IMG/VR virus record: IMGVR_UViG_3300025011_000634
Location: 1-36,523 of that record
Reading direction: 5' to 3' (one strand)
Length of the DNA: 36,523 bases
DNA from: a virus
Shown here: positions 8,655-34,523 of the stretch, one piece after another
Layout of the letters: each line of letters starts with the position of its first letter
Position numbering within the stretch: position 1 is the stretch's first letter
Translations under genes and position numbers: made by a program
Notes under the pieces: generated by a model
Database searches by the model: none
Told to the model about the DNA's origin: nothing
The model's input: the letters and a program-made list of their open reading frames with translations, nothing else

Positions 8655-9526
8655 ATCCTATTTACGACTTACTTAGAGCAGACGGGAGTATTGTTGTAAA
8701 TAAGAACTTAATATTTGCAATTGGACTTCACGAATCAATTATCTACGCAGAATTAGTATCTAGGTTTAGTTATTTTTCAGACAGAGACAGGCTTGAAAGT
8801 GACGGTTACTTCTACAATACAATTAGTGATCTGCAATCAGGAACGGGTTTAGGTGAAAAAGCTCAAAGGAGTGCAATTAAGAACTTGGAAACATTGGGAT
8901 TGATAGACTCCGATAGAAGAGGTATGCCTCCTAAGAGGTATTTCTCTATTCTGGATAACGAATCTCTCCTAAAAGACTTACTGGCTAAAGGCAAGATAAA
9001 ACAAGCTGAAACCATTACTACATCACAATTACGCCATTCGGGAGGAATTAAAGACTCCAAGGTAGCGGAAACAAAAACGCTATATGGGAGAGCAAATAAT
9101 ACTAAGTCTAAGAATACAAAGCACAATACTAATAACATGGGAATTTCATCTGACGATGTAAATTCGTGTGTAAAAGAAAAGGCTATATCTTTTTCTGAAT
9201 ACAAACTTAGATATGTTGTTGGTGATTTTGAGGAAGAAAGTATTGATTATTACTTAAAATCATTTAAGCGATATAGGAAAAAGGAACATTCAAAGCTAAC
9301 GAGCAAGAAGTGGGCTTATGTTGTGGATACATGGTTCCACCTTTGGGATAGCCAAAGGAATACATCGGTTGATAATGATATCTACACAATGGAGAATATA
9401 ATCGATGCTCATTTTAAAACTAAGTACACATCAGGAGACCACAGCATCATTCATTTTTTATCAGGAGAGATAAGGATTAACCGTTATTATGAAACTAAGT
9501 ATGACGAGAGACGAGAGATTAATTAA
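8651..9526 (+). CDS. winged-helix replication/initiator-like protein
   Basis: 291 residues from a GTG start overlapping the upstream stop (GTGA). The N-terminal ~100 residues have the pattern of phage or plasmid initiator winged helices: an opening IVVNKNLIFAIGLHESIIYA, a wing region (DGYFYNTISDLQSGTGLGEK) and a recognition-helix phrase AQRSAIKNLETLGLI. The middle is Lys/Thr/Asn-rich linker. The C-terminal half is charged and unassigned. A similar two-part protein occurs at 27565. It may be a second initiator or a regulator. The function is inferred from fold pattern only. Confidence 0.55.
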   Translation: MNPIYDLLRADGSIVVNKNLIFAIGLHESIIYAELVSRFSYFSDRDRLESDGYFYNTISDLQSGTGLGEKAQRSAIKNLETLGLIDSDRRGMPPKRYFSILDNESLLKDLLAKGKIKQAETITTSQLRHSGGIKDSKVAETKTLYGRANNTKSKNTKHNTNNMGISSDDVNSCVKEKAISFSEYKLRYVVGDFEEESIDYYLKSFKRYRKKEHSKLTSKKWAYVVDTWFHLWDSQRNTSVDNDIYTMENIIDAHFKTKYTSGDHSIIHFLSGEIRINRYYETKYDERREIN

Positions 9527-9635
9527 TAATACTTATCAGCTAGTGCTTGGTTTAGGATTTGGGCTATTCGGGAGATTAGGAAGAAGAAGGGTGGTAAATA
9601 AGGGTGGGAATAACAATAAGTTCAAAAAGGCATAG
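9501..9635 (+). CDS. possible 44-residue ORF
   Basis: An ATG at 9501 opens MTRDERLINN followed by a Gly/Leu-rich segment (LVLGLGFGLFGRLGRRR) and a basic tail. It overlaps the ends of both neighbours and has no ribosome site, so it may be fortuitous. I list it because it fills an otherwise empty 77-base gap and its hydrophobic-basic pattern recurs among tiny phage proteins. Confidence 0.25.
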   Translation: MTRDERLINNTYQLVLGLGFGLFGRLGRRRVVNKGGNNNKFKKA

Positions 9636-10023
9636 TTGTGACATGGGGTATGGCGGTTTTGGTAGATTCAGAAATATGGTATCCGAAAAAGTTGGCGTTA
9701 AATTTCATGAGCATTACACGAGTATGGATGTTCCAGAAGTTATATTTTCAAGTGGAGATAAAAGAACAGAGTTTTTTGAAAAGTACAACGCTGCTACCGA
9801 GGAACTTAATGAACAAGGGGAAGTAACTATAGAAGTTGCTAATTTTCTATATCAAAGCGATTGCAATGGAAAGGTAGATAGAAAACAGGCAAAGCAGATA
9901 TACGAATTAATTAAAGGGTGTGACGATAACATTAGTTTTGGTTATTCTGGTAGAAAAGATTGTGCCAAAATGTCAGATTTGAAGAGTATATTTTCGGATA
10001 AAACAGGGGTTGAATGGAGTTAA
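9604..10023 (+). CDS. conserved phage hypothetical protein
   Basis: 139 residues from a GTG start. The opening ITISSKRHSCDMGYGGFGRF and the phrase FRNMVSEKVGVKFHEHY resemble a widespread family of small phage proteins with a DMGYGGF-type motif. No catalytic site is evident and the family has no established function. The ribosome site is weak (AAGAAGG, distant). It lies in the accessory operon that begins at 8523. Confidence 0.6.
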   Translation: MGITISSKRHSCDMGYGGFGRFRNMVSEKVGVKFHEHYTSMDVPEVIFSSGDKRTEFFEKYNAATEELNEQGEVTIEVANFLYQSDCNGKVDRKQAKQIYELIKGCDDNISFGYSGRKDCAKMSDLKSIFSDKTGVEWS

Positions 10024-10060
10024 TTGAAACCGATGGATTAGCGAGGGAGGAAGAAATAGG

Positions 10061-10351
10061 ATGAGAGTCTATAGAATGTGCCACACCGACCACGACTACG
10101 GGCCAATAACAACCAATTCAGGTGATGTGATTATAGAGCTAAAAACCGAACTAGATGAATCGGGAGAAGATCAAGAGTGCGGATTCACTAGGGATAATTT
10201 ACCTAAGCTGAAGAAATCACTAGAATCATTGCCAATAACGGGAGATATTAACGACGCAACCGCAATCGCTGTATTTGGCCCATATATGATACAGGCTGAA
10301 GAAATGACTCAAGAGGAATATGATAGCTTGCCTGAATTTGATGGGTATTAA
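10061..10351 (+). CDS. hypothetical acidic protein
   Basis: 96 residues, strongly acidic, behind GAGGGAGGAAGAAATAGG. The start MRVYRMCHTDHDYG and the ending MTQEEYDSLPEFDGY are typical of small soluble phage accessory proteins. I recognise no domain. The run of acidic residues could mimic DNA, but that is speculation. Confidence 0.55.
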   Translation: MRVYRMCHTDHDYGPITTNSGDVIIELKTELDESGEDQECGFTRDNLPKLKKSLESLPITGDINDATAIAVFGPYMIQAEEMTQEEYDSLPEFDGY

Positions 10352-10377
10352 TTATTAAGGAGGAATAAGTAAGTAGG

Positions 10378-10503
10378 ATGAAAACAGATTGGTTTGCAAT
10401 ATTTATAATTGTTAGCGGTGTTTTGTATTATGGAACTTTTTGTTTCTATCGTCAGTGGATGATAAGAAAGGAAGAGATTGAGAAGGAAGGTAAAGATGAA
10501 TAA
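10378..10503 (+). CDS. 41-residue single-span membrane protein
   Basis: ATG behind AAGGAGGAATAAGTAAGTAGG. Residues 5-24 (WFAIFIIVSGVLYYGTFCFY) are one membrane helix, followed by a basic then acidic tail. It overlaps the next gene by eight bases. Function unknown. Confidence 0.5.
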   Translation: MKTDWFAIFIIVSGVLYYGTFCFYRQWMIRKEEIEKEGKDE

Positions 10504-10645
10504 GCAATCAGCTAAAGACTTAATTGAAGAAAAATTTATCGACATTATGGCTGCCCAATTTGGCGTATCTGATGATGACGAAGCGAGGGGGATACTTAGG
10601 GATATTATTTTTAAGGGCGGAGGAGAGATTGGGGAGGAGAAATAA
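10496..10645 (+). CDS. hypothetical small protein
   Basis: 49 residues (MNKQSAKDLIEEKFIDIMAA...), acidic and helical, with no motif. Its start overlaps the end of the preceding membrane peptide gene, and AGAAGGAAGGTAAAG supplies a ribosome site. The C-terminus GEIGEEK also appears, by way of the GGGGAGGAG ribosome-site sequence encoded within it, in neighbouring genes. Confidence 0.5.
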   Translation: MNKQSAKDLIEEKFIDIMAAQFGVSDDDEARGILRDIIFKGGGEIGEEK

Positions 10646-10647
10646 CT

Positions 10648-10794
10648 ATGAATAAGTATGAAAAATGCAAAGAATGTACATGGGGAACAAAGTCCGGGAA
10701 CTGCGTACTAGTGGGAGATGTTAGGATAACATGCAGGGCGAATGAATTTGGTGAGTTTTCTCAGGTGGTAGAGATTGGGGAGGAGGGGGAATAA
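10648..10794 (+). CDS. small four-cysteine protein
   Basis: 48 residues, with Cys7 and Cys10 (CKEC) and later Cys19 and Cys29 as possible metal ligands (MNKYEKCKECTWGTKSGNC). It starts two bases after the previous stop, with GGGGAGGAG upstream. Probably a small zinc-binding or Cys-rich phage protein of unknown role. Confidence 0.5.
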   Translation: MNKYEKCKECTWGTKSGNCVLVGDVRITCRANEFGEFSQVVEIGEEGE

Positions 10795-10798
10795 GCGA

Positions 10799-10984
10799 AT
10801 GGGTATCGGTTACATTTCTAAGGAATATACATTCTGGTGCGGAAATGAAGAATGTGGAGAATGGGAGCAATTTAGTGGAAATAATAAAAAGGACACAATC
10901 GAATTCGCAAGGAAACATGGTTGGAGAAACACTACGCTATATGGCTGGATATGCCCCAAATGTTCTAAGGTTAGTAGGGGTTGA
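10799..10984 (+). CDS. small zinc-ribbon protein
   Basis: 61 residues from the ATG at 10799. A TTG 24 bases earlier lies before the ribosome site GGGGAGGAGGGGG and is not preferred. Two Cys pairs, WCGNEECGEW near residues 13-18 and WICPKCSKV near 51-54, make a zinc ribbon. Function unknown. Confidence 0.55.
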   Translation: MGIGYISKEYTFWCGNEECGEWEQFSGNNKKDTIEFARKHGWRNTTLYGWICPKCSKVSRG

Positions 10985-11001
10985 GAAGGAGGTGAAACAA
11001 G

Positions 11002-11169
11002 ATGATTAACTGCGAAGGTTGCTCAATGCCTATACATGAAGGTGATGAAGTCCTAATTATTCAATGGCATGATGATTTGCCGGAAATGATTATTCATAAG
11101 AGTTTCTATTGTCTACTAAAGCTTGAGGAGATCAATGAGGGTATTGGGAGTTTTGAGGAGGGGAAGTAA
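11002..11169 (+). CDS. small protein with CxxC motif
   Basis: 55 residues behind GAAGGAGGTGAAACAAG. It opens MINCEGCSMPIHEGDEVLII, a Cys pair followed by a GDEV phrase, as in many small phage zinc-binding proteins with a treble-clef-like start. A further Cys (HKSFYC) and His could complete a site. Its GAGGAGGGG end serves as the ribosome site of the next gene. Confidence 0.55.
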   Translation: MINCEGCSMPIHEGDEVLIIQWHDDLPEMIIHKSFYCLLKLEEINEGIGSFEEGK

Positions 11170-11170
11170 G

Positions 11171-11407
11171 TTGAGTGATAATCCATATGTAAAGCAGCAA
11201 ATGCAATCAATCCGGAACTTAATGGAGGTTCCCATAACTAACGGATGTAACTACTGCATGAAGGGTAAACAATTAATTAGTCATACCGTGCATAATAGAT
11301 GGTATGTGGATGACGTAAAGTGTGAGTTACGAGCTAACAATGATTTGGTTTCCTCGGAACGCATCTATATAAATTTTTGTCCTATGTGTGGTAGGAGGTT
11401 AAAGTAA
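11171..11407 (+). CDS. small zinc-ribbon phage protein
   Basis: 78 residues from the TTG at 11171, directly after GAGGAGGGGAAGTAAG. An upstream in-frame ATG at 11123 lies inside the preceding gene without a ribosome site. Two Cys pairs, GCNYCMKGK and FCPMCGRRLK, flank a beta-rich middle, the layout of the common phage 'C..C ... INFCPMCGR.L' zinc-ribbon proteins. Role unknown. Confidence 0.65.
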   Translation: MSDNPYVKQQMQSIRNLMEVPITNGCNYCMKGKQLISHTVHNRWYVDDVKCELRANNDLVSSERIYINFCPMCGRRLK

Positions 11408-11409
11408 TT

Positions 11410-11871
11410 ATGACTAAATACCAGCACTACAAAGGTGGCATCTATACTCTTATATCGGCATCGGCATACCACACAGAGACGGATGAGCGACTTGCGATAT
11501 ATCAGAACAAAGGTGGAGAAGTATTCGCAAGACCTCACGCCATGTTCTTTGAGTATATTTTAGTCGATGGGGAGACGGTTCAGAGGTTTAAGGAGATAGA
11601 TTCAGCTCCAAGGGAATATCCAATAATCAAAGGCAAGGATGCAGAAAAATTCGTGAAAAGACAAGAAAACTACATGAACAATCTATTGAAAAAGTATGGG
11701 AGGGTGAACAGGAATGAAGCAACACATAACTCCATCCCAAGCAAAAGAGATAACCGAAGAACAATTCTACTCTCTATTCAAAAATCAACATTGGGGAAGT
11801 GTAAGGCGCAAAGATTACGCCAATTATCATCACAAAAAGGTTACTATCGGGAAGTGTATCGAGGTACTTGA
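11410..11871 (+). CDS. DUF1653-like protein with an overlapping C-terminal extension
   Basis: 153 residues. The first ~50 (KYQHYKGGIYTLISASAYHT, then YQNKGGEVFARPHAMFFEYI) fit DUF1653, a small beta domain found in many phages and bacteria, often stand-alone. The frame continues 53 codons into the start of the next gene. That tail (after about residue 100) is Arg/Lys/Ser-rich and looks like out-of-frame reading of the neighbour, so a stop codon may have been lost recently. Confidence 0.65.
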   Translation: MTKYQHYKGGIYTLISASAYHTETDERLAIYQNKGGEVFARPHAMFFEYILVDGETVQRFKEIDSAPREYPIIKGKDAEKFVKRQENYMNNLLKKYGRVNRNEATHNSIPSKRDNRRTILLSIQKSTLGKCKAQRLRQLSSQKGYYREVYRGT

Positions 11872-12028
11872 AGAACACGACAGATGCATTAATATAACAA
11901 ATGCTGTATTCGGAGTAGAATACGATAATAAATTTACTTGGGAAGTGAGACTTCGCCATCTTGATAAATTAAATTATGAGGCTGAGCTTATAGATGCACT
12001 ATGGCAAGCAGTTAAATCAATATTGTAG
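11714..12028 (+). CDS. conserved phage hypothetical protein
   Basis: 104 residues, ATG behind GGGAGGGTGAACAGGA. It begins MKQHITPSQAKEITEEQFYS and contains HHKKVTIGKCIEVLEE, phrases I associate with a common small early phage protein in Firmicutes. No known function. It overlaps the preceding frame by 158 bases. Its own sequence looks the more gene-like of the two in the overlap. Confidence 0.65.
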   Translation: MKQHITPSQAKEITEEQFYSLFKNQHWGSVRRKDYANYHHKKVTIGKCIEVLEEHDRCINITNAVFGVEYDNKFTWEVRLRHLDKLNYEAELIDALWQAVKSIL

Positions 12029-12041
12029 GGAGTGAAGAGGG

Positions 12042-12161
12042 ATGGGAGAAAAGGAAATTCTCTTAAAAATAAACGAACTTATCAGAAAGGCTGAAGATGG
12101 AGACATAACGATAAAGGACGTTTATTATGCCATAAAAGTTATAATGCCTAGTGACCAATAG
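12042..12161 (+). CDS. 39-residue hypothetical protein
   Basis: ATG behind GGGAGTGAAGAGGG. MGEKEILLKINELIRKAEDG then DITIKDVYYAIKVIMPSDQ, two helices, acidic. It is the last rightward gene before a convergent terminator. No function can be assigned. Confidence 0.5.
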   Translation: MGEKEILLKINELIRKAEDGDITIKDVYYAIKVIMPSDQ

Positions 12162-12196
12162 ATTAAGGAATATTTCACATACTAATAGCACAAACA

Positions 12197-12221
12197 AATG
12201 CCATCCAGCTCGGATGGCATT
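12197..12221. terminator. bidirectional terminator between convergent genes
   Basis: AATGCCATCC and GGATGGCATT form a perfect 10-bp stem with loop AGCTC. T-rich sequence follows on both strands. It separates the rightward accessory operon from the leftward DUF4359-like gene, whose stop is two bases away. Confidence 0.8.
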
Positions 12222-12223
12222 AT

Positions 12224-12499
12224 CTATTTCAAGGGAATGAACCGATTAAACATTCCTAAAGTAGTTACCTTCCTCTCGCCATAGTACGTAGTGTAAATAG
12301 TTCCAAAGTAAATATCCTTAGATGTCGTGGCTGAACTTATTAATGGCCCGCCAAAGAAAGAGACTAATCCACTCTCTAAGCCAGGTGCGCTGCGCTCTAT
12401 CACCTTATCCTTTGCCCATGCTACATAATCGCTTCTAGGTGGGTTTGTGGCCGCCATCGCAACTAACACCACAGCTAATATAGCTAATCTTTTCATCAT
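12224..12499 (-). CDS. secreted DUF4359-like protein
   Basis: 91 residues. A short basic start (MMKRLAI) and hydrophobic core to about residue 17 form a signal peptide or anchor. It is followed by TNPPRSDYVAWAKDKV, the phrase typical of DUF4359, small exported proteins of unknown function. The ribosome site AAAGGAGAGATGG lies just upstream. Isolated between terminators on the opposite strand, it has moron character. Confidence 0.65.
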   Translation of the reverse strand: MMKRLAILAVVLVAMAATNPPRSDYVAWAKDKVIERSAPGLESGLVSFFGGPLISSATTSKDIYFGTIYTTYYGERKVTTLGMFNRFIPLK

Positions 12500-12553
12500 C
12501 CATCTCTCCTTTGCTCAAAATTATTATTACCTGAAAAACGAACAATTATGCAA

Positions 12554-12592
12554 AACAAATCCCTCTAATCATTGCGAATAGAGGGATTTGTT
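12554..12592 (-). terminator. strong inverted repeat after the plasmid-like operon
   Basis: AACAAATCCCTCTA (12554-12567) and TAGAGGGATTTGTT (12579-12592) are a perfect 14-bp inverted pair with an 11-nt loop. In the leftward RNA the 3' arm ends in UUUGUUUUGC, so it can end transcription coming from the M23 gene. It could also be a structural site of the adjacent repeat region. Confidence 0.6.
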
Positions 12593-12602
12593 ATCATGTC
12601 TA

Positions 12603-12665
12603 ATCGGTCACTATATCGGTCGTTCTTTATATCAGTCACTGCATCGGTCGCCATAAACGACTGAT
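12603..12665. repeat. ATCGGTC repeat cluster (iteron-like)
   Basis: Two 20-bp direct copies, 12603-12622 and 12631-12650, match at 17 of 20 positions. Each contains two ATC(G/A)GTC heptamers 12 bp apart. An inverted copy, CGACTGAT, lies at 12658-12665. The cluster sits in the gene-free gap between the M23 stop and the 14-bp inverted repeat. Such arrays serve as iterons, partition sites or transfer origins in plasmids. Which applies here cannot be seen. No gene occupies 12500-12761. Confidence 0.55.
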
Positions 12666-12761
12666 GTACAAGCCAAAATACGCTAAATACCTATGATTTT
12701 TCTAGGAAAAAGAGGGTTAAGGGGGAATGATTAAGGATTCCAAAGGACAAGCAAGGGGGAT

Positions 12762-13346
12762 TTACTTTAAGTACCTCACAGGGTCAACAGCAACCCCCTC
12801 CTTCCTGACCTCAAAGTGTAGGTGTGGGCCTGTTGATCTACCCGTACTTCCACAATTACCAATCCTAGAACCTGCGATTACAGGATAGCCAACTTTCACA
12901 GATAACCCACTTAAGTGACCATATAAAGTTTCGACTCCATTTCCATGATTCACGATAATCATATTTCCATAAATATCATCCCAACATACCTTGGTTACAT
13001 CTCCCTCCCAATACGAAGTTACGGGAGTTCCTTCGTTGGCAGCTATATCAATTCCGTGATGGTCCACGCCGTTGAAGTATTTCGTTATCTTACCTTTCAT
13101 TGGCAACTCATTACTACCTTGACCAATATTTGAAACTCTTTCTACTGTACCTTGGATAGAGTCTATCCTTGCGTTCAACCTTTTCAGGGTCGGAGCAAGA
13201 TCCTGTATAGTAGTTAGTAGGCCCAACATGATAGCCACCATCGCAACCAAGTTAGCGAGTTGTTTTCTCTCTACAGCGATAAGAATTACATAGGCTATAA
13301 ATGATGCTACCGCAATAAATACTATGTGGAAAATCCATAAAGCCAC
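12762..13346 (-). CDS. membrane-anchored M23 peptidase
   Basis: 194 residues. Two N-terminal hydrophobic segments (about 3-25 and 30-47) are followed by a short coiled stretch and an M23/LytM domain from about residue 82. Zinc ligands are visible as HHGID (His96, Asp100) and HLHFEV (His177), with the usual YGHLS in between. M23 enzymes cut peptide cross-bridges in the cell wall. It starts one base after the stop of the pilin-like gene and ends the FtsK cassette. In conjugation systems of Gram-positive bacteria a membrane-bound wall hydrolase opens the wall for the transfer channel. That role is attractive here but inferred. Confidence 0.8.
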   Translation of the reverse strand: MALWIFHIVFIAVASFIAYVILIAVERKQLANLVAMVAIMLGLLTTIQDLAPTLKRLNARIDSIQGTVERVSNIGQGSNELPMKGKITKYFNGVDHHGIDIAANEGTPVTSYWEGDVTKVCWDDIYGNMIIVNHGNGVETLYGHLSGLSVKVGYPVIAGSRIGNCGSTGRSTGPHLHFEVRKEGVAVDPVRYLK

Positions 13347-13347
13347 A

Positions 13348-13584
13348 TTACATCACGCCTGTCGTAAAGTCGAAGAACTTCTTGAGCAACTGCCACGCTA
13401 CGGCTACTACCGAAAGGATAGCAACAATTGTAGTTGCCGTTCTTAGCATTCCTGCGACCTGACCCTTATTCAATGCTCCTAAAATTAATTCCCCTAACCA
13501 AGATCCCACACCAAGCATAACTAAGATGATAATTACGAATCCAGGCTTACCTGGTCCGAATACCTCCCTTGCTGCTTCTGCCAT
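13348..13584 (-). CDS. two-helix pilin-like (VirB2/TrbC-like) membrane protein
   Basis: 78 residues behind AAAGGAGGAATGCTTAA. After a short amphipathic start come two membrane helices (about 15-38 and 47-70), separated by a small polar loop (NKGQVAGMLRT), with a basic KKFF end. Two helices with a tiny loop is the plan of VirB2/TrbC-type pilins and of small T4SS-channel proteins. Sequence similarity is not provable by eye, and a holin-like protein is an alternative. It sits between the replication-relaxation protein and the M23 peptidase, overlapping the former by 38 bases. Confidence 0.55.
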   Translation of the reverse strand: MAEAAREVFGPGKPGFVIIILVMLGVGSWLGELILGALNKGQVAGMLRTATTIVAILSVVAVAWQLLKKFFDFTTGVM

Positions 13585-14233
13585 TTAAGCATTCCTCCTT
13601 TATTTGATCTAATGAATAAACACGAAATTCAAGATTATGGGCATTCTCTTTATCAATTTTCTCCTTGATAGGTTTAACTCTTCCAGTAGTCACAACGATA
13701 ATAGCAGGGAATCGCTTGGACAAGGGAACCCACCATTGATCCATATAGGTTCCTGAATTAAAAAGCTCGTTGTATTTTTTAACTTTCTTTGCAAAGTCGT
13801 TACCACTTCTATTAATATCCATTTCGACGAAATAGAAATACATAGCATCTTGCCATAGATTTTTTATCCCCACAAAAGCATCCGGCCGAATAGTCTTGTA
13901 GTCCTTAATCTCCCGGTCGAAGCAATGAAGTTTTTCCATATTGGAGAGAGTTGCGGTTATCCAAGTGAAGACCCACGACACGCCTAGAACATGCTCTAGC
14001 TGCCCCGGCCTACGATCTAGGTAGTAATGATATGGTTCACCTAGCCTTAGTCTATAACGATTGACTTTAGCGTGTGGTGGAGATGAAAGGATGGCAAGGC
14101 GGCGTTGAACTATGCGGAGACAATTACCTTTGAATAAGAGTAGGTGAATCATATCCGTAGTTAGTGCTGTTTGAGATTCTAGGAGGTCAACTATTGCCCT
14201 ATCGCGGCGATAACATTTTTGGTGATTGCTCAA
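13547..14233 (-). CDS. replication-relaxation family protein
   Basis: 228 residues from a TTG start that overlaps the FtsK end by 35 bases. The N-terminal ~75 residues form a winged-helix (RDRAIVDLLESQTALTTDMI, then RLAILSSP). A middle region has HYYLDRRPGQLEHVLGVSWV followed by a nuclease-like core (RPDAFVGIK, FYFVEMDINRSGNDFAKKV, IIVVTTGR). The order fits the replication-relaxation (Replic_Relax) family encoded by plasmids, ICEs and phages, usually next to FtsK-type ATPases. Members are thought to act as DNA-processing or relaxase-associated proteins. The motif DxxxxxxD...FVEMD looks like a PD-(D/E)XK-type core, which is inferred. Confidence 0.75.
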   Translation of the reverse strand: MSNHQKCYRRDRAIVDLLESQTALTTDMIHLLLFKGNCLRIVQRRLAILSSPPHAKVNRYRLRLGEPYHYYLDRRPGQLEHVLGVSWVFTWITATLSNMEKLHCFDREIKDYKTIRPDAFVGIKNLWQDAMYFYFVEMDINRSGNDFAKKVKKYNELFNSGTYMDQWWVPLSKRFPAIIVVTTGRVKPIKEKIDKENAHNLEFRVYSLDQIKEECLNGRSSKGGIRTR

Positions 14234-15332
14234 TCTTTATCAACTCGCTTCGTACAATCATTGGCCTATTGTTATAGAGTTTTATCGCTTCGTCGGGTTC
14301 TAATAACAATGTTTGAACCTCTAATTTCTCAAGACCACATTTATAGATAGCTCTGCCTTTTATTGCTGGAAGGTGTGCCGCCTCATCACTGTCCAAGATC
14401 ATCCTGGAGTTAATTATATCGGCCACAACAAAACATATCCTTCCGAGAAACATTGCTTTTAGATCACCAAACTTTTCAAACACTTTGGAGGATGGCCTCT
14501 GTGTGGCTGCAATCACATGTACTCCAACAAATCTCCCCATCCTCAGAAGCCTCCATAAGCTGTCTTGTGCATCTTCTGGCAAGTCTGCCCACTCGTCTAT
14601 AATTAGGACTATATAGGGCATCTGGTGGCCTTTCTTGTGGTATTTCTTGATCTTAGCGCATGATGCTGACTTTAGAATCTTCTTTCGCTTATCCATCTCT
14701 TTATTCAGTGACTCGAACAAACCCTTAACTTGACTCATTTCGTCTACTACCAAAGCCATTTCATTAAGATAATCAAACTCAGTCGATTTAGGGTCGATGA
14801 TAATCAAGTTGGTGTCCGGCCTGTAAAGGAGGATTGAGTTCGCGATAACATGGAGTTGATTCGATTTTCCATAGTTCGTTTCCCCGGCTGTTAGTAGGTG
14901 CGGATAATCCACAAGGTCCCTAACTATTAATCCTTTAGCGGATACACCTAATGGTAGTGGTAATTCCATCTTGGAATATTTAGTGTGGTCATAGAGAGAG
15001 TATGGGTACTTCTTTTTAAGTTCCTCGGTCATAACCTCCATGGTGACTAATTTTCCGTGCTTTTCGATATGGACTGAACCACCTGTTGCATCTGCAAATA
15101 GTTGAGTCTTTTTCTGAAAATCAGAGAATCCAGTTCCAGGAGGAAGGAAGATTCTAAACGTCCATACTTCACCATCTTTTGATTTATGGATAATTAAAGG
15201 TTTTAGTTCACCCTTGGAGTACAGGGCATCTACGCAATCCTGAACTGCTGCATGGGCATCATTGCCCTTACGATGGAGCCAAAGCGATTTAAGCTGGTCC
15301 CTGACTTCTTCTATTACGTTTTGCTGCTTCAT
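14199..15332 (-). CDS. FtsK/SpoIIIE-type DNA translocase
   Basis: A 377-residue cytosolic ATPase. Walker A GETNYGKSN at residues 150-158 (Lys156), Walker B IVLIIDEWADL with Asp246-Glu247, and the FtsK-type ATQRPSS around 276-282. An N-terminal ~110 residue region precedes the motor. It lacks the membrane domain and gamma domain of chromosomal FtsK and so resembles the compact motors of plasmids and ICEs (Tn916 Orf21-like, TraB-like coupling proteins). The Walker A is degenerate at the third and fourth positions (ETNYGKS for TGxGKS). It overlaps both neighbours, so the operon is tightly coupled. Confidence 0.85.
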   Translation of the reverse strand: MKQQNVIEEVRDQLKSLWLHRKGNDAHAAVQDCVDALYSKGELKPLIIHKSKDGEVWTFRIFLPPGTGFSDFQKKTQLFADATGGSVHIEKHGKLVTMEVMTEELKKKYPYSLYDHTKYSKMELPLPLGVSAKGLIVRDLVDYPHLLTAGETNYGKSNQLHVIANSILLYRPDTNLIIIDPKSTEFDYLNEMALVVDEMSQVKGLFESLNKEMDKRKKILKSASCAKIKKYHKKGHQMPYIVLIIDEWADLPEDAQDSLWRLLRMGRFVGVHVIAATQRPSSKVFEKFGDLKAMFLGRICFVVADIINSRMILDSDEAAHLPAIKGRAIYKCGLEKLEVQTLLLEPDEAIKLYNNRPMIVRSELIKIEQSPKMLSPR

Positions 15333-15483
15333 CCATCAATCCCCTTTCAATCAATACTTTCCTCAGTCCGTCCCTAATCATGTCGGCTAGTTCTCCTTCT
15401 TCAAGGCTGAGACACATAATAGCTTGCCGAATATCCTTATCCCTTTTCCTTAACCTAGCCCTAAGAATTGATATATCGTCCAT
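15289..15483 (-). CDS. small helical ORF ahead of FtsK-like gene
   Basis: 64 residues from ATG behind CCCAGGAGGTACACAA, an excellent ribosome site. Two charged helices (ILRARLRKRDKDIRQAIMCL, then ELADMIRDGLRKVLIERGLM). It overlaps the ATPase start by 44 bases, suggesting coupled translation and perhaps an accessory subunit of the motor. No family recognised. Confidence 0.6.
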   Translation of the reverse strand: MDDISILRARLRKRDKDIRQAIMCLSLEEGELADMIRDGLRKVLIERGLMDEAAKRNRRSQGPA

Positions 15484-15560
15484 TTGTGTACCTCCTGGGT
15501 AATCGTTGTGTTACATGAAGGTATGGGATACTGTTTGTACTATATTCCTGTTAAATTTAG

Positions 15561-15591
15561 GCAAAAGAAAAACCAGACATATCATGTCCGG
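15561..15591 (-). terminator. intrinsic terminator of the RacA-like gene
   Basis: On the minus strand CCGGACAT-GAT-ATGTCTGG forms an 8-bp stem (one wobble) followed by TTTTTCTTTT. It overlaps the stop codon of the RacA-like gene, so the FtsK cassette must have its own promoter in 15484-15560, where I see only weak candidates (a TATAGT at 15539-15544). Confidence 0.8.
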
Positions 15592-16121
15592 CTAAATAGC
15601 TTTCTCCACCAAGGATTATTGCGTTGTTGTGCTTCTTTTATTTCCGTCAGGCGTTGTAATACCTCATTATCTCTCTCCTCTACGCTCCTAGACCTATCCT
15701 CTGCTCTCTTATTGTGATCTGTTAGGGTTTGCCTTATACCCTCTATTTCCTCTTGTAATTCAAGGATTAGCTCGTCCCTCCTGCTTAACTCCTGCTGAAG
15801 CATGGCCCGTAGACTCTGCACTAAATCTTCTTGTTGCGTTGCCTCGGTGTTGTTGTCCGGTTCTTGCGTTGCTAAGTCGGTAACTATCATTCCGAATCTA
15901 TTTTCCATTAACCCAACAATTTGATCTGCATCCAGCCCTTCGGAGTATGATTTACTAATAAATGAAAGCAGCTCTACGGTTGAATCTTGTTCGTATTTTA
16001 TCTTTTTGCCTTCTCCTGTTGTTTTGAAGTAATTCCTAAACTCTTCCTTGTCTTTATAAAAGCGGGCCGAACTAACCCCAACTTTGGCTAATTCCGCACA
16101 GTCCTTGAGAGTTAAGTACAC
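15582..16121 (-). CDS. RacA-like MerR-HTH coiled-coil segregation protein
   Basis: 179 residues from a GTG start. The N-terminus (LTLKDCAELAKVGVSSARFY, to about residue 75) is a MerR/excisionase-type HTH. Residues about 98-165 are a long coiled coil with heptad character. The end NNPWWRKLFSRT is a Trp-rich basic tail. This is the layout of RacA-like proteins from Bacillus chromosomes, plasmids and phages. RacA anchors origin DNA to the cell pole, and plasmid copies are proposed to help partition. The start codon touches the DnaA-box cluster of the candidate origin, so its HTH may bind there, which would fit a partition protein next to its site. Confidence 0.7.
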   Translation of the reverse strand: MYLTLKDCAELAKVGVSSARFYKDKEEFRNYFKTTGEGKKIKYEQDSTVELLSFISKSYSEGLDADQIVGLMENRFGMIVTDLATQEPDNNTEATQQEDLVQSLRAMLQQELSRRDELILELQEEIEGIRQTLTDHNKRAEDRSRSVEERDNEVLQRLTEIKEAQQRNNPWWRKLFSRT

Positions 16122-16124
16122 GAC

Positions 16125-16274
16125 TTATGCACATCCTTTCTGTGGATAATATCCTCGCGCGTATTAATAATAAGATCACTCTTGTAAGAGTATTTCTTGT
16201 GGGGAAAGATTCTTTCGGGGTCCCAGTAAGATTCTTTCGGGGAGGGGGAAAGAATCTTACTGGGTTGTGGATAA
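16125..16274. other. candidate replication origin with three DnaA boxes
   Basis: TTATGCACA at 16125-16133 on + and TTATCCACA on - at 16141-16149 and 16266-16274 all match the DnaA-box consensus TTATNCACA. Between them lie an AT-rich run (16161-16171) and the iteron and inverted-repeat block at 16206-16264. The segment fills the whole gap between the stop of the Rep gene and the start of the RacA-like gene. DnaA boxes, AT-rich element, iterons and an adjacent rep gene are the standard components of a theta plasmid origin. That it works as one is inferred. Confidence 0.65.
16206..16264. repeat. iterons and 17-bp inverted repeat with G-rich loop
   Basis: AAGATTCTTTCGGGG occurs at 16206-16220 and again at 16228-16242 (22-bp period). 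The core recurs inverted at 16248-16258. The second and third copies form a perfect 17-bp inverted repeat (16222-16238 with 16248-16264) around the loop GGGGAGGGG. The first copy contains the palindrome GAAAGATTCTTTC. G-runs on one strand could form a quadruplex. Probable Rep-binding sites, judging from place. Confidence 0.7.
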
Positions 16275-16277
16275 CTA

Positions 16278-16664
16278 TTATCTCTCTTTCATCATCATTT
16301 CGTAGAGTGTATTAGGACTTATTAATCCTTCTTTTACGGATCGCTCAAGGTGTTCTGTGTCCTCAGAACAAAGAAAATACATCACCTTCTCGTCACCTGG
16401 CATTCCGGCCTTTACTATCCATATGTAACCGCGTTCCTCTAGCCACCTCATCCCAGCCGTAATACTTGGCCTTGATAATCTAGTTAGTTTTAATAGTTGA
16501 GGCATAGCCAGGTAATCCCCAACCTTCTCCCAACCCCAACACTTCCTAATAAGGGTAAAGTAGCATTTGAGGGCAGCAAAATTCGTAATATCTGGCATGA
16601 GTTGGTCAAATACTACGTTGGGTACTTCTGTATAGTTTTTCTTAGGGCGTGGCAATCTGAACAT
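16278..16664 (-). CDS. winged-helix plasmid-type replication initiator (Rep)
   Basis: 128 residues, ATG behind ACAGGGG at 9-base spacing. It opens MFRLPRPKKNYTEVPNVVFD and contains a helix-turn-helix (LAMPQLLKLTRLSRPSITAG) followed by MRWLEERGYIWIV, the winged-helix pattern of phage O-like and plasmid RepA-type initiators. It is small for a stand-alone initiator, so it may act with host DnaA, whose boxes lie just downstream. A regulator role is the alternative. The context points to a replicon core: an antisense RNA and attenuator upstream, an origin-like block downstream. Confidence 0.6.
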   Translation of the reverse strand: MFRLPRPKKNYTEVPNVVFDQLMPDITNFAALKCYFTLIRKCWGWEKVGDYLAMPQLLKLTRLSRPSITAGMRWLEERGYIWIVKAGMPGDEKVMYFLCSEDTEHLERSVKEGLISPNTLYEMMMKER

Positions 16665-16667
16665 AAC

Positions 16668-16710
16668 AAAAAACCCCTGTCAATTTCTATTAGGAAACTA
16701 GACAGGAGTT
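16668..16710 (-). terminator. attenuator in the rep leader
   Basis: On the minus strand AACTCCTGTC (16710-16701) pairs with GACAGGGGTT (16681-16672), a 10-bp stem with one wobble, followed by TTTTTT at 16673-16668 and the rep start codon four bases on. The 5' arm can instead pair with AGACAGGA encoded at 16765-16758 (8 bp), which would prevent the terminator. This is the classic terminator/antiterminator switch used for copy control in pT181- and pIP501-type plasmids. Confidence 0.7.
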
Positions 16711-16727
16711 GTCAAATGTCTTATACT
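16699..16727 (+). promoter_or_regulatory. promoter of the counter-transcribed RNA
   Basis: TAGACA (16699-16704), 17-bp spacer, TATACT (16722-16727) on the plus strand, opposite to rep. Five bases match each consensus hexamer. It fires away from rep, into the rep leader. Confidence 0.7.
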
Positions 16728-16733
16728 TGAATT

Positions 16734-16817
16734 AAACAGCACAAAACACAGGATAATTCCTGTCTGGCGGGCCTCTTCGAACATCACTTTGGCGGTGGGT
16801 AGTTCGAAGAGGTTTTT
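16734..16817 (+). ncRNA. antisense (counter-transcribed) RNA to the rep leader
   Basis: Bounded by the promoter at 16699-16727 and an intrinsic terminator: CCTCTTCGAAC (16772-16782) and GTTCGAAGAGG (16802-16812), a perfect 11-bp stem followed by TTTTT. Predicted length is about 85 nt. A 5' hairpin ACAGGA-TAAT-TCCTGT lies at 16748-16763. The loop of the main hairpin carries TTTGGCG, a YUNR U-turn motif like the UUGGCG loops of known plasmid copy-control RNAs. It is fully complementary to the rep mRNA leader and contains no ORF with a ribosome site. Binding should favour the attenuator and lower rep expression. Confidence 0.7.
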
Positions 16818-16865
16818 CCTTTTCCCTTTAATTCGACAGGTTCAACAAATTATCCTTCAAAATAA

Positions 16866-17137: not shown

Positions 17138-17521
17138 TCACTTAGACTTCATTTTTTTGATCGACTCCAGAAGATCACGAAGAAATTCGGGGTCTATTTT
17201 TTCGTTGTAAAGCTGTCGGGCTAACATAGCGTAAGGTAGACTCTCTTGTTTGGCAAAAAACTCAACCAGATCCTCCGGAAGGTCAACATTGTTAAGCTCG
17301 ACCAGCTTACGAAGAGACATGATATTATTATCTAGCAGATATGCCGAGTCAACACCCAATGCCTTGGCTACCTTCTCTAATGCTCTGATTGACATGTTAC
17401 TCTTTCCTGTTTCCGCATCAGACAAGTAGGATAAAGAAAACCCTGTTAGGTCGCGCAGATCAGCAAGGGTCATTCCCCTCACTGTTTCTCTAATATATCT
17501 AATCTTGTGGCCGTAGTCCAT
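17138..17521 (-). CDS. XRE-family repressor
   Basis: 127 residues from the ATG at 17521. An upstream ATG at 17533 overlaps the better-placed GGATGGTG site. Residues about 4-62 are a lambda-repressor-like HTH (GHKIRYIRETVRGMTLADLR, DLTGFSLSYLSDAETG, LEKVAKALGV) and the rest is a helical C-terminal region. It faces a Cro-like gene across a dyad-rich 215-bp gap, the standard lysogeny switch, and is therefore the likely prophage (and perhaps plasmid) repressor. There is no autocleavage domain, so induction may depend on another protein such as the BRO-type antirepressor at 18620. Confidence 0.8.
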   Translation of the reverse strand: MDYGHKIRYIRETVRGMTLADLRDLTGFSLSYLSDAETGKSNMSIRALEKVAKALGVDSAYLLDNNIMSLRKLVELNNVDLPEDLVEFFAKQESLPYAMLARQLYNEKIDPEFLRDLLESIKKMKSK

Positions 17522-17533
17522 TTGACACACCAT

Positions 17534-32940: not shown

Positions 32941-33094
32941 CGGATTGCTCGACAAAGAAATTGGCAAAGAGTTAGGATGCAGCGCAAACACTATATGGGC
33001 ATGGCGAGATAAAAACGATTTGCCGAGTAATGTAGGTATTTTTAGCTGGGATAAAGGCTATCGTGAGGGGGTTGAGAGGGTATGTAATGGATAG
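32891..33094 (+). CDS. small HTH protein (paralogue of 30776)
   Basis: 67 residues, GTG behind AGAGGTGAAATGGT. LDKEKALQLWLNGLLDKEIG, KELGCSANTIWAWRDKNDLP matches the N-terminal HTH of the gene at 30776 in order and spacing. Basic, likely DNA-binding. It overlaps the sigma-like gene by eight bases. Confidence 0.6.
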   Translation: MARSHLDKEKALQLWLNGLLDKEIGKELGCSANTIWAWRDKNDLPSNVGIFSWDKGYREGVERVCNG

Positions 33095-34523
33095 GAATCC
33101 ATACTTGGACGGAACACCGGATGAATTTATCGAAAAGAATCTTGGATTAGCTCGACATATTGCTTGGAAATACGTTAAATCTCGTAAAGATCGTGACCCT
33201 GATGATATCCTGAGTGTCGCCAATCTTGGGCTAGTTAAGGCATATCAAGGATTTAATCCAGAGGGAAGAACTGGTCAAGATGGCAAAGAGATTACATTTG
33301 CGGCATACGCAGGGAGTACAATTCACGGATTCATCATGACATTCCTTCGCGTTGACCGTCCTATCCACCTCGGGAGAAGAGCTATTGACCTAATCGCTAA
33401 GCTAAATTCCGCAGGATTAATCGGGAATGAAACCATTGAGGAAATTGCAATAAAAGCAGGGATTAGCACCAAAGAAGCCACTGAGGCGGTTATGGCAAGT
33501 GTTGCGGTTAACACCGATAGCATGGATCGTGAAATAGTCACAGAGGGTGGAAATATTACCCTTGGGGATATGTTTGGAAAATGTGACGAGATAAACGAAA
33601 GTCAGGAAATAGTTGATGATTTTGTTACACAATTACCACCTAAACTTAAAGAAATATACAGACTACGCATAGTTGGAGAAAAAACGCAAAGAGAAATAGC
33701 GGATATCATGGGACTTAGTCAATCGTATATCACTAGGCTTGAAGAAAAACTAATGAAAACAGCGCGTCAATATGGAGATGTGCAAAAAAGATTGGAGGAT
33801 GAAGCTATGGGCAGAGAAATATCACCTGAGACAAAACTAATGCGCGAAGAGGTTGATACTTTTGCTAAATTTGGCACAATCGGAACTTATGAGGATGTCG
33901 CGAATAAGTATGGAGTCGGAAAAAGCACGGCCTATGCTTGGATGAAAAAACTTATGAGTGAAGGGGAGGTGAAGAGGGTGGAGGCAGTTACTGAGGTAAA
34001 AGAAATGAAGATGGAAGAGACGACTTTTTTCGAAATACCCAATACACCGGAGAGCTATCAAGCGATAAATGAGGCCGTAGGGGTCACAGAAGGGGTTGTC
34101 TTGCCGTTGAAGGTTGAGGGGGTGGAGGAATGTATTGAGGAGGTGAAAGTCGAGCCGGAAAGGGAATATACAGATTGCTTTGGACAATACGATGTTTCCT
34201 GTGAATTAACTCCTTGTGGAAGAATTAGCGAATGTAGTTTTGTTAAGGAAAATCCTATTAAGAAAACAAGGGATGATCTCGGAGGGTTGGCTGAACCGGA
34301 ACCAGCGTGGACTCCTGAGTATTCAGGACGTATACCGAGAAGGATGAGCGACGAAGAAGAGAGAAAATTATTAGATGCAATTACGGGTTTAGATACCGAA
34401 GAATTGGATGAAGAATTATGGATAACGGTTACCGATGACCTTAAGGGGTTACGCGAACGAATGATTATGCGAGCTGAAATTAAGTTTAATGAGAGAATTA
34501 ATCAAATTTTGGGAGGAAGATAG
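33087..34523 (+). CDS. sigma-70 family factor with long C-terminal extension
   Basis: 478 residues from the ATG at 33087 behind GAGAGGGTATGTA. Sigma region 2 (GLARHIAWKYVKSRKDRDPD, DILSVANLGLVKAYQGFNPE, YAGSTIHGFIMTFLRV), a region-3-like HTH (about 108-140), and region 4 (LPPKLKEIYRLRIVGEKTQR, IADIMGLSQSYITRLEEK, about 184-228). Ordinary sigma factors of this type end near residue 240. Here a further HTH (TIGTYEDVANKYGVGKSTAY, 265-290), an acidic stretch with a Cys group (near residues 370-395) and a helical tail follow. A phage sigma would redirect host RNA polymerase, for instance to late genes. The extension's role is unknown. Confidence 0.8.
   Translation: MDRNPYLDGTPDEFIEKNLGLARHIAWKYVKSRKDRDPDDILSVANLGLVKAYQGFNPEGRTGQDGKEITFAAYAGSTIHGFIMTFLRVDRPIHLGRRAIDLIAKLNSAGLIGNETIEEIAIKAGISTKEATEAVMASVAVNTDSMDREIVTEGGNITLGDMFGKCDEINESQEIVDDFVTQLPPKLKEIYRLRIVGEKTQREIADIMGLSQSYITRLEEKLMKTARQYGDVQKRLEDEAMGREISPETKLMREEVDTFAKFGTIGTYEDVANKYGVGKSTAYAWMKKLMSEGEVKRVEAVTEVKEMKMEETTFFEIPNTPESYQAINEAVGVTEGVVLPLKVEGVEECIEEVKVEPEREYTDCFGQYDVSCELTPCGRISECSFVKENPIKKTRDDLGGLAEPEPAWTPEYSGRIPRRMSDEEERKLLDAITGLDTEELDEELWITVTDDLKGLRERMIMRAEIKFNERINQILGGR

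Follow-up and report, generated by a model that had tools for sequence, protein, structure and literature searches.

A putative antisense RNA and attenuator switch ahead of rep in an uncultured phage-plasmid

Bacterial plasmids use small antisense RNA switches to keep count of themselves, and for Gram-positive plasmids the attenuation of rep by an antisense RNA is textbook knowledge. The DNA examined here, called the window, is a 36,523-nt (36.5-kb) virus record fragment (IMGVR_UViG_3300025011_000634, positions 1 to 36,523). An earlier note made from its letters proposed that plasmid-type copy control precedes a rep gene inside a phage genome. We asked whether the region ahead of rep has the parts of such a switch, whether related viruses keep them, and what kind of element carries them. 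The elements, their structures, covariation, strand bias, and conservation, together with an origin-like region and phage genes, make it very probable at the level of sequence that this unit is an antisense-RNA/attenuator copy-number control of a phage-plasmid.

Relatives were gathered from viral contigs by using the Rep protein, two other initiator types, and a DNA pattern as queries, and they contain 15 distinct leaders that are 44 to 97% identical. Because all but L017 (14 of 15) were also reachable through Rep proteins, the set was not selected for the leader. The order of elements is common to 15 of 15: an AGGA-N12-CCTGTCGAAWTA box, a stem-loop called P1, element A, the antisense promoter, element B, element C, a U-tract, and the start codon.

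Parts of the leader on both strands

The earlier note had described a plus-strand promoter and an 11-bp terminator stem followed by TTTTT, and both were found in place. The promoter (16699 to 16727, plus strand) has a -35 TAGACA and a -10 TATACT separated by 17 bp, with 10 of 12 matches, and its -35 overlies element B. On its own, this match is weak evidence because 11 promoter-like sites were found in the search where 7.5 were expected, yet a site with 8 to 11 of 12 matches and a spacing of 17 to 18 occupies the corresponding position in each of the 15 leaders. P1, which is both the antisense stem-loop and the terminator stem (16772 to 16812, plus strand), has 11-bp arms at 16772 to 16782 and 16802 to 16812 that are 100% complementary, and TTTTT follows directly (16813 to 16817). 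This promoter, convergent with rep, and the terminator predict a short RNA of about 85 nt antisense to the rep leader (16734 to 16818, plus strand, placed from promoter and terminator positions and from the fold) that includes A and P1 and excludes B and C. The apical loop of P1 contains UUUGG, so that the U-turn-like loop claimed previously is present, as weak evidence, since a loop of 7 carrying YUNR is no rarity in random sequence.

On the minus strand, where the rep start codon ATG lies at 16662 to 16664, we located the pre-emptor element A (AGACAGGA, 16758 to 16765), element B (AACTCCTGTCT, 16700 to 16710), which can pair with A or with C, element C (GACAGGGGTT, 16672 to 16681), which is the 3' arm of the attenuator, and the attenuator U-tract TTTTTT (16668 to 16673), which has 4 to 7 T in 15 of 15 leaders. 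The earlier note had placed A, B, C, and TTTTTT correctly, but its description of B needs correction: the string reads AACTCCTGTCTAG, and part of TCCTGTCT therefore falls outside AACTCCTGTC. Full-length leaders fold the B:C hairpin followed by the U-tract, and leaders ending before C fold A:B, with the A-B interval as a second hairpin. Thus, the proposed pair of mutually exclusive structures before rep, an A:B antiterminator and a B:C terminator, agrees with the predicted folds, and A lies inside the predicted antisense RNA. Folding of both strands, which the earlier note had advised, gave -33.2 kcal/mol (z, -4.1) for the plus-strand RNA and -57.7 kcal/mol (z, -6.0) for the rep leader, with 0 of 200 shuffles as stable in either case.

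Within C, AGGGG at 16674 to 16678 stands 9 nt ahead of the start codon and is likely the Shine-Dalgarno sequence; in every leader, C includes AGGGG, AGGAG, or GGGG at a distance of about 9 nt from the start codon. For this reason, the attenuator would also hide the ribosome site, as stem-loop IV of pT181 does (PMC5703833). The antisense RNA could then act mainly on translation, with B:C hiding the Shine-Dalgarno sequence and transcription not being stopped. RNAI of pSK41, one of the RepA_N plasmids, acts on translation without attenuation (PMC5703833), and it resembles the RNA predicted here in being antisense to a rep leader and in having the ribosome site in the induced stem. However, the window differs from pSK41 in the U-tract after the stem. 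A tract of 4 to 7 directly follows B:C in 15 of 15 leaders, it is not needed to hide a ribosome site, and together with B:C it has the form of an intrinsic terminator. We regard a mainly translational switch as unlikely and favor attenuation of transcription.

Just upstream of the leader is a near-invariant AGGA-N12-CCTGTCGAATTA box (16829 to 16856, minus strand; one copy in the window). Its spacing is fixed in all leaders, even where A, B, and C have changed, and it is probably the rep promoter and/or operator. The CCTGTCGAATTA box was also considered as an extra pairing partner of A or C, which was ruled out because it is unchanged where A, B, and C differ (L048). No clear sigma-70 promoter was identified for rep. 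In the window and in all leaders, the box is unlike a normal sigma-70 promoter, and the window encodes a sigma factor (33063 to 34523), so that a phage-specific rep promoter is possible.

Covariation and wobble pairs across the leaders

Covariation was counted on hand-cut, hand-aligned elements with artificial linkers and guided by structure, so that the counts lean toward structure; counted in this manner, P1 had two-sided substitutions in 8 of 11 pairs (33 cells) and a covariation score of 0.559, versus 0.206 (SD, 0.031) when shuffled and at most 0.205 with partners slid. With the same leaning, 92.9% of A:B cells were paired, 3 of 8 pairs had two-sided changes, and the score was 0.273, versus 0.199 (SD, 0.017) when shuffled and at most 0.141 when slid. 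A:B was weaker, with 6 to 7 of 8 pairs, in L007, L009, L014, L017, L048, and L062. For B:C, 96% of cells were paired, a percentage reached by 51 of 500 shuffles, and changes were mostly one-sided, with 1 two-sided pair; its score was 0.306 versus 0.267, reached by 12 of 500 shuffles, and at most 0.167 when slid. B:C covaries little partly because C, which must also serve as the Shine-Dalgarno sequence, varies little. Permuting whole partners among leaders gave 0 of 20,000 for P1, about 0.001 for A:B, and 0.09 for B:C, figures that are optimistic because the sequences are related. In L048, the sequences of A, B, and C are all new and pairing is retained.

Positions that pair as G·U in an RNA become a C/A mismatch in its complement. 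Among distinct sequences, P1 contained no G·U cell in rep mRNA, against 9 cells in which the plus-strand RNA alone forms G·U. The reverse held for B:C, with 17 cells G·U only in rep mRNA and 0 of the opposite kind, and for A:B, with 8 versus 2. Additionally, the plus-strand form of P1 was the more stable one in 15 of 15 leaders, and the rep mRNA form of B:C was the more stable one in 14 of 15. This strand signature is the strongest single result of the analysis, and the wobble-pair bias therefore implies that P1 is kept as antisense RNA and that A:B and B:C are kept as an mRNA attenuator.

These data also bear on whether an antisense RNA is involved at all. Switching between A:B and B:C could answer to a protein or to transcription rate, in which case the leader would be a cis-acting rep attenuator sensing another signal and P1 would be a terminator for convergent transcription. 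This is very improbable given that the plus-strand promoter upstream of P1 is kept in all leaders with A inside its predicted transcript, that the structure preserved in P1 through sequence change is that of the plus-strand RNA, and that a promoter and a terminator without a long ORF between them imply a short RNA antisense to A. The thought that chance hairpins and promoter-like sequence happen to coincide in an AT-rich intergenic region draws on how common promoter-like sites are (the 11 against 7.5 above), but we give it almost no weight: both fold z-scores and the compensatory changes across the 15 leaders speak against it, and covariation together with the strand-specific wobble bias already refutes it. 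As expected if the antisense-controlled attenuator proposed in the earlier note is real, A, B, and C are kept, with compensatory changes and strand-specific wobble, in all relatives whose Rep is at least 90% identical.

Three Rep relatives at 47% (L054, L055, and L056) are without the window-type leader. In L054 (2101 to 2430), direct repeats ATCTACAAATCTACATGTAGATG are found upstream of rep in place of the attenuator. In L010 (2440 to 2725) and L011 (2800 to 2990), which encode Rep relatives at 65% identity, the rep operon is preceded by a leader of unrelated sequence that contains an antisense-type hairpin (CCTCCAAGGA / TCCTTGAAGG) plus a terminator and may represent another family of switches like that of the window. 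The L011 leader also matches Leuconostoc plasmids over 44 nt, with no annotated rep nearby, and this match was treated as chance.

Rfam gave no plasmid control RNA in the whole window at the gathering score and no match of the leader to any plasmid control RNA at an E value of ≤10, and DNA similarity searches of the leader region against phage and plasmid records gave none. Rep and FtsK alignments found no relative in two scans of 84,980 species genomes, and we therefore name no host.

Initiator, origin, and phage-plasmid setting

The rep gene (16278 to 16664, minus strand) encodes a 128-amino-acid winged-helix, phage O-like initiator with matches to phrog_678 (1.5e-10) and to Phage_rep_O (9.8e-5, below the Pfam cutoff). 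It resembles the N-terminal half of phage O proteins and is short, without the C-terminal primosome domain. Its AlphaFold model (pLDDT, 79) has winged-helix matches in the PDB; a sequence search of the Rep alignment against solved structures returned nothing. Directly downstream is an origin-like region (16125 to 16274) with three DnaA boxes in 150 bp (16125 to 16133, 16141 to 16149, and 16266 to 16274), found in 0 of 300 shuffles, and three iterons with 22-bp spacing (16201 to 16265). Regular repeats about 22 bp apart and DnaA boxes thus adjoin rep, as in an iteron-type origin. In relatives with another Rep type, the repeat sequence differs, the spacing is 22 to 24 bp, and the DnaA boxes are kept. 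Because the repeats change with Rep type and the boxes are retained, this region supports the prediction that Rep is an iteron-binding initiator with its origin downstream, in line with the earlier naming of the gene as rep. For HTH_36-type Reps, we found no such boxes right after rep.

Two further observations concern the origin. The second and third iterons in the window form a perfect 17-bp inverted repeat (16222 to 16264) that is absent in L006, the sole O-like relative checked. In L043 (2624 to 4100), about 1 kb between rep and the MerR-like gene is without a DnaA-box cluster, and the origin of this relative may be within rep or at another site.

An XRE gene (17138 to 17533, minus strand; HTH_3, 1.3e-9) occupies the position of CopR upstream of the leader, and an XRE gene with 38 to 100% identity lies upstream of every leader. 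Judging from this position, the XRE protein probably represses the rep promoter, as CopR represses the repR promoter of pIP501 (PMC4981023). Downstream of the origin, a plasmid module (13547 to 16121, minus strand) encodes a 179-amino-acid MerR-like protein, labeled by eye and with no confident Pfam family, an FtsK/SpoIIIE ATPase, and a Replic_Relax protein. Adjoining the plasmid module in L007 (109 to 366) is an ORF of tandem Q-T-F/L-A-V/M repeats that could be a repeat array and not a gene.

We identified no terminase in the 36.5-kb window. The relative G003 has a 127-bp terminal repeat and forms a circle of 65,629 bp (65.6 kb) that carries small and large terminase, portal, and major head protein genes as well as the rep/FtsK/Replic_Relax module; the nearest portal proteins in named phages are those of Paenibacillus larvae phages, at 25% identity. 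Because packaging and structural genes are joined to a plasmid replication module on one circle, these elements are phage-plasmids, and the phage genome setting in the earlier note is upheld through this relative.

The leader cassette was found ahead of four initiator types, among which similarity was seen only between the two HTH_36 types (29%). The leaders of L007, L014, and L017 are 92 to 95% identical and precede three different Reps, and leaders whose O-like Reps are close relatives show up to 43% difference. L043/L048 is nearly identical to the window in DNA over 9095 to 15869, with a Replic_Relax protein that is 100% identical, and it has a different Rep and a leader in which A, B, and C have changed together. 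Therefore, the leader and rep move as separate units.

A proposed control circuit and its relation to known systems

From features of the DNA we infer that both RNAs are made, that the antisense RNA binds the leader and causes termination, that copy number is set in this way, and what role the XRE protein has; the circuit would run as follows. Transcription of rep would start near the AGGA-N12-CCTGTCGAATTA box and run leftwards. Without interference, A would pair with B, the terminator could not form, and Rep would be made and would fire the iteron/DnaA origin directly downstream. The plus-strand promoter would yield the short antisense RNA in proportion to copy number, and this RNA would bind the leader via P1 and its U-turn-like loop and cover A. 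B would then be free to pair with C, which would end transcription at the U-tract and also hide the Shine-Dalgarno sequence in C. More copies would thus mean more antisense RNA and less Rep, with CopR-like repression by the upstream XRE protein probably added.

The earlier note had called this the pT181/pIP501 logic. By its sequence features, the proposed mechanism is that of pT181 and pIP501 (PMC5703833, PMC4981023), and the element belongs to neither family, as its Rep, RNA sequence, and carrier differ. Like pT181 RNAI and repC, it has a short, here predicted, antisense RNA and a pre-emptor (A) set against an attenuator stem (B:C). However, pT181 Rep is a rolling-circle Rep_trans protein, whereas a winged-helix O-like or HTH_36 initiator and an iteron/DnaA origin are found here; the phage-borne leader also lacks a sequence match to any Rfam control RNA (E value of ≤10), and the window Rep is Phage_rep_O-like. 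Its gene order matches that of pIP501 and the Inc18 plasmids (PMC4981023, PMC5703833): an XRE gene, which in pIP501 encodes the repressor CopR, comes first, then the probable rep promoter region, a leader that an antisense promoter faces convergently, the attenuator, rep, and the origin downstream. It differs in its leader (about 170 nt versus 329), its predicted antisense RNA (about 85 nt versus 136), its unrelated 128-amino-acid Rep in place of a PriCT_1 RepR initiator, its iterons and DnaA boxes at the origin, and its phage genes. Extrachromosomal mycobacterial prophages likewise replicate in the manner of plasmids and rely on RNA to do so, but they have RNA-based origins at which an initiator RNA replaces Rep (PMC7157519), whereas the antisense RNA predicted here would act as a regulator of Rep. 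In the literature searched, we found no report of antisense-driven rep attenuation in a phage.

Taken together, these results incline us, with modest confidence, to the view that an undescribed antisense/attenuator RNA family serves uncultured phage-plasmids as a movable cassette for copy control and incompatibility that passes whole between unrelated initiators. Its antisense hairpin would diversify by compensatory change, so that co-resident phage-plasmids could form separate compatibility groups whatever their Rep. Finding the same leader before unrelated initiators shows that copy control and initiator can be exchanged one without the other. Relatives with two loop types open RNA-based incompatibility between phages to a direct test. 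Should the switch operate as proposed, a small diffusible RNA would set how many copies these viruses keep as lysogens and how they exclude one another.
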